Assembly: GCA_018668255.1 (NCBI GenBank)
Contig: JABISZ010000096.1
Span: 1-43,574 of the forward strand
Reading direction: 5' to 3'
DNA length: 43,574 bases
DNA from: Pseudomonadota bacterium
Lineage (GTDB): Bacteria; Pseudomonadota; Gammaproteobacteria; Ga0077536
Shown here: one piece after another, positions 20,966-27,695 of the stretch
Position numbering within the stretch: the stretch's first letter is position 1
Layout of the letters: the number at the start of each line of letters is the position of its first letter
The notes under the pieces: model-generated
What the model was told of the DNA's origin: nothing
The model's input: only the letters and a program-made list of their open reading frames with translations
Databases searched by the model: none
Program-made: the position numbers and the translations under genes

Positions 20966-21021
20966 CAAAAAATACTCCCCTATTTTATAAATAGCGGCTC
21001 ATGTAGATAAATTCTGAACAT

Positions 21022-21054
21022 AAAAAAAGGAGGGATGCAGTACACCCCTCCTTT
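21022..21054 (-). terminator. Strong rho-independent terminator after the 29-aa gene
   Basis: On the minus strand AAAGGAGGG pairs perfectly with CCCTCCTTT around an 11-base loop (arms at 21046-21054 and 21026-21034) and a run of seven T follows. It ends transcription of the small gene at 21087-21176. A second small hairpin (GGTTG/CAACC, 21061-21076) lies between. Confidence 0.85.
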
Positions 21055-21086
21055 GTGACTGGTTGCATCAACAACCCTGGCCACTC

Positions 21087-21176
21087 TTATAGGCTAGCAA
21101 CCTTTAACAGCAGAAAGATCTCTCGCCCATAATTAGCACCAACAAGCTGTGACGCGTTTTCCATATCACTAGACAT
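21087..21176 (-). CDS. 29-aa peptide gene of unknown function
   Basis: I do not recognise this peptide. It begins MSSDMENASQ, continues LVGAN, and ends YGREIFLLLKVASL, so it has an acidic-polar start and a hydrophobic, partly basic end. No cysteine is present and no export signal is clear. The reasons to call it are the exceptional ribosome-binding site 8 bases upstream, an ATG start, a TAA stop, and a strong terminator 33 bases after the stop. A promoter-like TATACT lies about 35 bases before the ribosome-binding site. It follows the SDR gene by 104 bases and may be its own unit. It could be a modified-peptide precursor, a small regulator or a leader peptide; nothing in the window settles which. 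Confidence 0.55.
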   Translation of the reverse strand: MSSDMENASQLVGANYGREIFLLLKVASL

Positions 21177-21179
21177 CAA

Positions 21180-21191
21180 GATCACCTCCTT
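21180..21191 (-). promoter_or_regulatory. Near-perfect ribosome-binding site of the 29-aa gene
   Basis: The minus strand reads AAGGAGGTGATC, twelve bases complementary to the 3' end of 16S rRNA, with GGAGG 8 bases before the ATG. No other gene here has so extended a match. Confidence 0.75.
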
Positions 21192-21254
21192 TTCGAAATA
21201 TTTAAAGGTTTAGTATATTGCTAAATAATAATTTTCGAAAGCTTAGTTTTCGAA
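21190..21254. repeat. Three TTTTCGAA direct repeats upstream of the 29-aa gene
   Basis: TTTTCGAA occurs at 21190-21197, 21232-21239 and 21247-21254; each includes the palindrome TTCGAA. They lie in the 104-base region between the SDR stop and the small gene, around a possible TATACT. They may be regulator sites. Confidence 0.4.
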
Positions 21255-26456: not shown

Positions 26457-27695
26457 ATGGGTGATGGTAAACTGACTGCTCTTGTAATAGAAAAACTGCT
26501 ACCGCAGCAGACAGATTACAAAAAAACAGATGGGCGCGGGATCCAACTCATCATCACAACATCAGGAGAAAAATGGTGGCAATACGACTACCAATGGGCA
26601 AGCAAAAATAAATCCATCTCTCTTGGGTCTTATCCGATAATAGACCTTCATAAAGTCAGACAACAAAGGAAGGTCTTTGAGGATCTAATAGATAAGAATA
26701 TTGACCCTGCCGCACACCGAGAGTTCGGGTCGGCAAAAAATGACAAGATTGACACGTTCGCCCATGTTAGTAATGAGTGGTTGGCATCTCGCTCCAAAAC
26801 TATGAGCGAGCAATTGAAAGCGAGAACAACCGTACGTCTCAAGAATGATATCTTACCGACGCTAGGCAATAGACCAATAAAAAATATCTCAAGAACCATT
26901 ATTCTAGAACTCACTAAAGCTATTGAAAATAAAGGTCAAGTTGACAAAGCTCACCGCACACGACAAACAATCCAAAAAATCTTCGACTACGCATTGACAT
27001 TAGGAATTATTCGACATGACCCAACTATCAACCTGCGTAATTCTCAACTATCTCTTGTAACGCGACCCTATAAATATATAGAGGCGCCAGAAGGCGTGGC
27101 TCAGTTAATGCGGGGAATATCCACTTATAGGGGATATATAAAAACAAGGTTGGCCTTAGAGTTCGGTGCCTTAGTGTTTGTCCGACCAACGCAGCTAGTA
27201 CATGCCAAATGGTCAGAGATTGATTTTGATGAAAAAGAATGGAGTATTGAGCTCAATGGAACCAGACACGTTGTTCCTCTGGCTACACAAACGTTGAAAA
27301 TCCTGATGCAAGCCAGGCCCCCGACTAATCGAGAAGGGTTCATTTTTCACAACAGAAAAAGCCGACACTTGACGCTTAGTGCAAACACTCTTAATCACGC
27401 CTTAAAAAGTATCACCAAAAACGTCACTCAAATAACCGTTTGGGGTTTCCAGCTTATGGCACGACAACATTTGTCTGAAATGGGATGGAGCAAGCTATCC
27501 CTAAAGGCACAACTGCAGGCCGATCACGGAGTCAGGGAGATCTTACAAAAAAACATCACATATACACACGACAACTTATTACTTGAAAGAACGAGTATGA
27601 TGCAAGCGTGGGCAAACTATCTATATGCACTTAAAGATGGCGGTGATCGACTCTCCATGCATGGTGCCATCAGAATAAAAAACGACACTCTCTAA
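26457..27695 (+). CDS. Tyrosine recombinase/integrase, catalytically degenerate
   Basis: A 412-residue integrase of the P4-like class. An N-terminal DUF4102 arm domain (about 5-90, with TDGRGIQLIITTSG and ISLGSYPIIDLHKVRQQR) is followed by a core-binding helix bundle (95-200) and the catalytic domain. R243 (FVRPTQL) and Y369 (ITYTHD) are present, but the HGFR motif expected near 329 reads WGFQ, so both the histidine and the second arginine are missing, and the QLAH motif reads QLQA. It is probably unable to recombine DNA. GGAG lies 9 bases before the ATG. No tRNA or flanking direct repeat is seen. It is followed after 10 bases by the cysteine-rich gene. Confidence 0.85.
   Translation: MGDGKLTALVIEKLLPQQTDYKKTDGRGIQLIITTSGEKWWQYDYQWASKNKSISLGSYPIIDLHKVRQQRKVFEDLIDKNIDPAAHREFGSAKNDKIDTFAHVSNEWLASRSKTMSEQLKARTTVRLKNDILPTLGNRPIKNISRTIILELTKAIENKGQVDKAHRTRQTIQKIFDYALTLGIIRHDPTINLRNSQLSLVTRPYKYIEAPEGVAQLMRGISTYRGYIKTRLALEFGALVFVRPTQLVHAKWSEIDFDEKEWSIELNGTRHVVPLATQTLKILMQARPPTNREGFIFHNRKSRHLTLSANTLNHALKSITKNVTQITVWGFQLMARQHLSEMGWSKLSLKAQLQADHGVREILQKNITYTHDNLLLERTSMMQAWANYLYALKDGGDRLSMHGAIRIKNDTL

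Follow-up and report, generated by a model that had tools for sequence, protein, structure and literature searches.

The window, by which we mean the whole stretch of 43,574 nucleotides that was analysed, carries a short transcription unit on its reverse strand. Upstream of it, in the same orientation, is an SDR gene; the next gene, alkane-hydroxylase-like, is convergent. The first-pass annotation had reported a 12-base Shine-Dalgarno (SD) match, a 29-codon open reading frame (ORF) and a terminator with seven T at 21020-21191 on the reverse strand, and these readings of the sequence are correct. The following features can be placed at the locus:

21212..21217, reverse strand: −10 box TATACT of a sigma70-type promoter, a direct reading, conserved in 6/6 congeners
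21180..21191, reverse strand: Shine-Dalgarno sequence AAGGAGGTGATC, a 12-nt perfect complement of the 16S rRNA 3′ end
21176-21174, reverse strand: start codon ATG, preceded by the spacer TTG, read from the sequence
21087..21176, reverse strand: 29-codon ORF MSSDMENASQLVGANYGREIFLLLKVASL plus stop, whose openness in frame 0 is selected across homologues and whose amino acids are not
21165..21169, reverse strand: 5′ strand of helix P1, GTGAT (codons 3-5), from the P1 covariation in alignment A2
21150..21155, reverse strand: 5′ strand of helix P2, GCGTCA, within the ORF, from the P2 covariation in alignment A1
21065..21070, reverse strand: 3′ strand of helix P2, TGATGC, from the same P2 covariation in alignment A1
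21055..21059, reverse strand: 3′ strand of helix P1, GTCAC, directly 5′ of the terminator, equal to the outer helix of the Rfam family RF01867
21022..21054, reverse strand: intrinsic terminator with a 9-13 bp stem and seven T, whose stem covaries in homologues

The complementarity of AAGGAGGTGATC-type SD sequences to the 3′ end of 16S rRNA is well established. The terminator stem, AAAGGAGGG/CCCTCCTTT, stands 3′ of the ORF, grows to 13 pairs by pattern scan and is followed by the seven-T run at 21028-21022; in the covariation alignment, 96% of the cells of the homologous stems are paired. Transcription is predicted to start at about 21204-21205, some 13 nt 5′ of the SD, and the RF01867 consensus begins about 12 nt 5′ of AAGGAGG. 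A TTG-N-TAtACT promoter pattern is found at a similar distance in many of 106 homologues, with the −10 box ending about 20 nt 5′ of the SD in many members. The fold of the 206-nt element reaches −66.5 kcal/mol against −51.5 kcal/mol after shuffling (z −3.6) and beats 200/200 shuffles. The P2 pairing of the window was read by hand and includes one G-U pair; a congener (L008) has GTATCGAC/GTCGATAC at the same site. Elsewhere in the window, an ORF at 26457-27695 on the forward strand resembles by eye a tyrosine-recombinase integrase, and no tRNA gene was found in the window.

The pattern AAGGAGGTGATC-N(0-8)-ATG has exactly one site per genome in 6/6 congeneric genomes, with 0 matches for the reversed control, and is present in 26 of the 36 genomes of the window's family, which supports the earlier argument that SD, ORF and terminator do not stand together by chance. 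All but two of the family loci listed continue with ATGTCTAGTG, an ORF of 23-29 codons and a terminator; at the other two (L017 and L020) the match is apparently to an unrelated site. The pattern AAGGAGGTGATCN{0,4}ATGTCTAGTGA marks at least 115 stretches among species-representative genomes. Agrobacterium, Rhizobium, Phyllobacterium, Pelagibacterium, Ponticaulis, Henriciella, Filomicrobium, SAR116 and Woeseiaceae are among the matches listed, each of which holds an ORF of 20-33 codons, apart from a few that are truncated where the contig stops. A covariance model, R1, whose input elements had all come from pattern searches, gave matches in 105 of 397 mostly complete Pseudomonadota genomes, with a single copy in each except one. 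That genome (G418), the only one of the phylum sample with two copies, carries L186 and L200, which differ in their start regions (MSHCHA.. and MSHGSA..). In the window's class the distribution is patchy, a broader model, R2, matching 12 of 322 genomes with the weakest matches doubtful. The element occurs across many alpha- and some gammaproteobacteria, about once per genome, and none of the viral contigs scanned for it carries it. At one locus (L043), on a contig titled Klebsiella pneumoniae MAG, the peptide is identical to that of L025 from another genus of the window's family, so that the organism label of L043 is probably wrong. These observations support the view that the locus is a real, translated-looking and self-contained small transcription unit.

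Selection on the reading frame was compared with selection on the peptide. Start codons in 213 elements are ATG (169), GTG (43) or TTG (1), and codons 6-18 are free of stops in frame 0 in 126 of 129 non-redundant elements, compared with 57 and 78 in the other frames. ORF lengths cluster by clade, at 18 or 22-26 codons, and at 28-29 in the window's genus. After codon 5, 35 independent close pairs hold 28 synonymous and 77 non-synonymous single changes (0.27 versus a neutral 0.30), and changes are spread evenly over codon positions (44/46/52). Repeating the count by clade gave the same answer (synonymous/non-synonymous 40/104, 3/17 and 0/8), with few pairs per clade and with the proviso that RNA-structure constraint could mask some amino-acid selection while strong purifying selection would show. 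We also looked for relatives that had lost the frame and kept the terminator, the observation named beforehand as fatal to the gene, and found instead that the frame is conserved and the peptide is not. Comparison of the homologues shows an ORF under selection to be translated and, as far as substitution patterns can tell, an encoded peptide free of constraint.

This result bears on the possibility that the 18-29 aa peptide (MSSE/MSSD.., MSHG.., VSR..) is itself the product, a functional microprotein for which the RNA structure would only tune expression. The strictly kept frame, the NTG-only starts and the strong SD agree with it, as does codon 2, which specifies Ser in 207 of 213 elements with TCT, TCG, TCA and TCC all in use, a hint of constraint on residue 2. 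Ser at codon 2 may be the one peptide-level constraint; the first codons owe their conservation largely to P1. We nevertheless regard a peptide product as unlikely, given that purifying selection is absent after codon 5, that peptides of different clades have almost nothing in common past residue 5, that searches of Pfam and NCBIfam with the peptide returned no match, and that the conserved stretches within the ORF track the RNA and not the frame. An EQPS-like peptide motif was considered as a coding signal and rejected: many homologous peptides resemble each other there because the RNA motif GGAGCAGCCTTC is conserved regardless of frame, as in L039 and L050, where it is kept under other frames. 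The first-pass annotation had offered a modified-peptide precursor or a small regulator as the function. The precursor is disfavoured because close pairs reveal no amino-acid constraint, and neither a conserved core peptide with adjacent modification or export genes nor any conserved neighbourhood of modification or transporter genes beside homologues was found; the small regulator survives in that it fits a structured RNA.

Evidence for such an RNA comes from covariation. An alignment of 57 elements revealed that codons 3-5 (GUGAG) pair with CUCAC directly 5′ of the terminator to form P1. Inside P1 lies P2 (GGUAUC/GAUACC), with compensatory changes in 5/5 main pairs and 79% of cells paired (A1). 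In 89 diverse sequences (A2), each of the six P1 pairs has compensatory changes involving both strands, and pairing is kept in 90.8% of cells; the covariation score is 0.551 versus 0.239 after shuffling (0/500), and slid controls stay at or below 0.18. P1 takes, among others, the forms GUGAG/CUCAC, CAUGGUU/GACCAUG, CAUUGUC/GACAAUG, GAAAG/CUUUC and CACCAAA/UUUGGUG. These comparisons show a helix between codons 3-5 and the pre-terminator bases that closes a large domain containing the ORF.

In some clades the RNA also contains a perfect partner for its own SD, namely CACCUUCCU for the SD AGGAAGGUG, CACCUCCU in the clade f225 and GGAUCACCUCC in L198, and where the SD varies to AGGAAGGTG the internal partner becomes CACCTTCCT. 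The longest SD complement measures 5.67 nt versus 4.89 nt after shuffling in 128 non-redundant elements (Wilcoxon p 2e-7, relatedness ignored). The SD/anti-SD pairing is weak in the window (−11.8 kcal/mol, z about −1) and in its clade, and masking of the SD would therefore depend on the clade. Many members have an ORF-internal motif, GGAGCAGCCUUC, that is able to pair with GGAGGU and whose letters are kept under other frames; of the two spacer bases preceding the start codon, tested for covariation with the internal motif, one gave a marginal signal (31/54 versus 26 shuffled) and the other none (45/54 versus 45.5). Since the SD lies 5′ of the 5′ strand of P1 and its mask within P1, the two pairings together would form a pseudoknot or else be mutually exclusive. 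At locus L198 (near 4014, reverse strand, in the 2.9 Mb genome G575 of the same phylum), the RNA includes GGATCACCTCC, which duplicates the 16S rRNA 3′ end and is a perfect complement of the SD of that RNA.

Such features could also belong to a ribosome-binding decoy, in which the complement of the 16S 3′ end would titrate or report free 30S or shield immature 16S ends, and the ORF would let trapped ribosomes leave. The conservation of a 12-14 nt SD complement in most lineages, the additional 16S 3′ end copy of L198 and the free peptide sequence all suit a decoy. It would however require a high copy number, it leaves the covariation of P1 and P2 unexplained, and the SD is altered in some clades, for example to AGGAAGGTG, for which reasons we consider it rather improbable.

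At the gathering threshold, an Rfam search of the window and ten homologues returned one tRNA only and was silent on the window. A lax Rfam search of alphaproteobacterial homologues revealed RF01867 (Caulobacter sRNA CC2171). Its gathering score of 75 bits is passed by L190, L195, L196, L201 and L206, with alphaproteobacterial intermediates at 76-99 bits, and matches below the cut-off occur at L167, L150 and L198; the Caulobacter control genome is among those matched. R1 and RF01867 match the same places in L190, L196, L201 and L206, and R1 also covers most places of the above-cut-off RF01867 matches in the intermediates. In the window's family, sub-threshold RF01867 matches fall on the coordinates of the element with E-values of 9e-8 (G019), 1.1e-7 (G007) and about 1e-4 or better (G010, G009, G012, G016 and G017), and three congeners (G004, G002 and G005) are matched at the correct coordinates with an E-value of about 0.02 and 20-22 bits; other genera of the family reach up to 44 bits. 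The window element itself has no match to the RF01867 model even at an E-value of 10, falls short of the 75 bits and, by the numerical criterion of Rfam, is not a member of the family.

The window does have the architecture of RF01867, whose consensus (cAAcaAucGAAAGGAGGUGAUCCAGUGUCUCAUuGuC ... GaCaAUGGAgGG plus a stem) agrees with it in the SD, the start, the outer helix and the terminator: a 5′ CAAC..GAAAGGAGGUGAUCC, an NUG start, UCN as codon 2, a helix over codons 3-5 as the outer helix and an adjoining terminator, in a model of 159 positions and thus of similar length. The two differ in P1 (GUGAU/GUCAC in the window, CAUUGUC/GACAAUG in RF01867), in the start codon (AUG versus GUG), in GATCTT where the RF01867 architecture has GATCC, in the ORF, which has 29 codons and another peptide, and in the host, a gammaproteobacterium and so not of the class of Caulobacter. 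Homology is continuous from the window's family to RF01867 through the intermediates, where R1, RF01867 and the pattern coincide. Because RF01867 matches fall on the coordinates of the element in relatives and the architecture is shared, we interpret the window element as a divergent homologue of RF01867. On this comparative evidence, the feature is best described as an RNA gene, about 185 nt long, that stands alone, is present in single copy and belongs to that family as a divergent member.

Searches of the literature with sequence strings found no paper on the element. Expression of a relative is supported by Mesorhizobium huakuii MH_s33, an sRNA reported with a length of about 215 nt and listed as RF01867 (PMC5596092). 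A Caulobacter ribosome profiling study reported its intergenic ncRNAs as untranslated, which speaks against our reading, yet found translation of two earlier predicted ncRNAs, which the relevant text does not name (PMC4117421). Sinorhizobium RcsR1 was dropped as a candidate identity; a review gives RcsR1 the same start position as rnTrpL. The filing of RF01867 as an sRNA, together with the single copy, the sigma70-type promoter pattern, the terminator and the lack of conserved neighbours, would suit a conventional sRNA that acts in trans by pairing with mRNAs and for which the ORF is incidental. We assign this explanation a low probability, as openness specific to one frame and starts confined to NTG are hard to explain without translation.

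The gene downstream lies on the opposite strand in 84 of the 141 loci with a neighbour and on the same strand in 57, and gene-context clustering, used to seek a conserved neighbour, detected clade-level synteny only, with mixed strands. The SDR and alkane hydroxylase genes, in which the first-pass annotation saw a functional setting, do adjoin the element, but this context is not conserved with it and appears incidental. In the f225 clade (L191, L203, L216 and L217), an arfB-like ribosome-rescue gene lies about 200 nt downstream on the same strand, and a queuosine-transporter-like gene precedes the element at most of these loci, both names having been given by inspection and not by family search. 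An ORF with P1 beside a terminator resembles leader-peptide attenuators, and with the arfB-like gene of f225 it raises the possibility of a transcription attenuator or leader of the downstream gene. This is very unlikely in general, considering that the downstream gene is unconserved, most often on the opposite strand (minus 84/plus 57) and convergent in the window, so that the conserved same-strand gene of leader-peptide attenuators is missing; the mixed strands leave read-through control possible in single clades. We thus rank the alternatives as follows, from the more to the less probable: peptide product, 30S decoy, ordinary sRNA, attenuator.

The reading that we favour, with somewhat better than even confidence, is a stand-alone RNA in which the ribosome on the ORF gates the folding. 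Ribosome entry at the unusually complete SD would be the decisive event. With codons 3-5 covered by an initiating ribosome, P1 could not form, and ribosome availability would in this way set whether the RNA is translated or folded. Under rare initiation, P1 would close the RNA and, in several clades, the internal anti-SD would also mask the SD. The stop codon is always at least 16 nt 5′ of the 3′ strand of P1 (127/127), so that a ribosome terminating there would keep clear of that strand and of the terminator. Of the two states, one would be stable or have its effect in trans. More tentatively, and with less than even confidence, the element could be a widespread stand-alone RNA switch of proteobacteria, gated by ribosomes and reporting the capacity for translation initiation, that is conserved in being translated and not in its peptide.

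An apparently orphan 29-codon gene is now tied to an Rfam family that is named after Caulobacter and has so far been filed, without explanation, as an sRNA of that genus. With a single copy in each genome, this family extends to Rhizobium, Agrobacterium, SAR116 and Woeseiaceae, and the RF01867 model misses most of these members; the family's reach into Rhizobium and Agrobacterium makes the RNA testable in tractable laboratory species. The unusual contrast between translation that is kept and a peptide that is free suggests that ribosomes read the ORF for the sake of the RNA, and calls for caution in annotation, as short frames with perfect SDs can belong to structured RNAs and not to peptide genes.

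The element shares features with several known systems. Like the dual-function sRNAs Spot 42 and rnTrpL, as described in the relevant portions of their reports, it is a short regulatory transcript with a translated ORF. Their peptides are reported there to be functional, whereas the peptide here is not conserved and selection on it is undetectable, a point against a functional product of the dual-function type. As in trpL-type attenuators, translation of a short ORF could alter folding beside a terminator; unlike them, the element has neither a conserved downstream gene nor a run of one regulatory codon. The long SD/anti-SD duplex recalls the extended-SD mRNAs of Staphylococcus aureus, as far as the relevant text on these describes them (PMC13009471), from which the element differs in having one site per genome, set within a structured stand-alone RNA.
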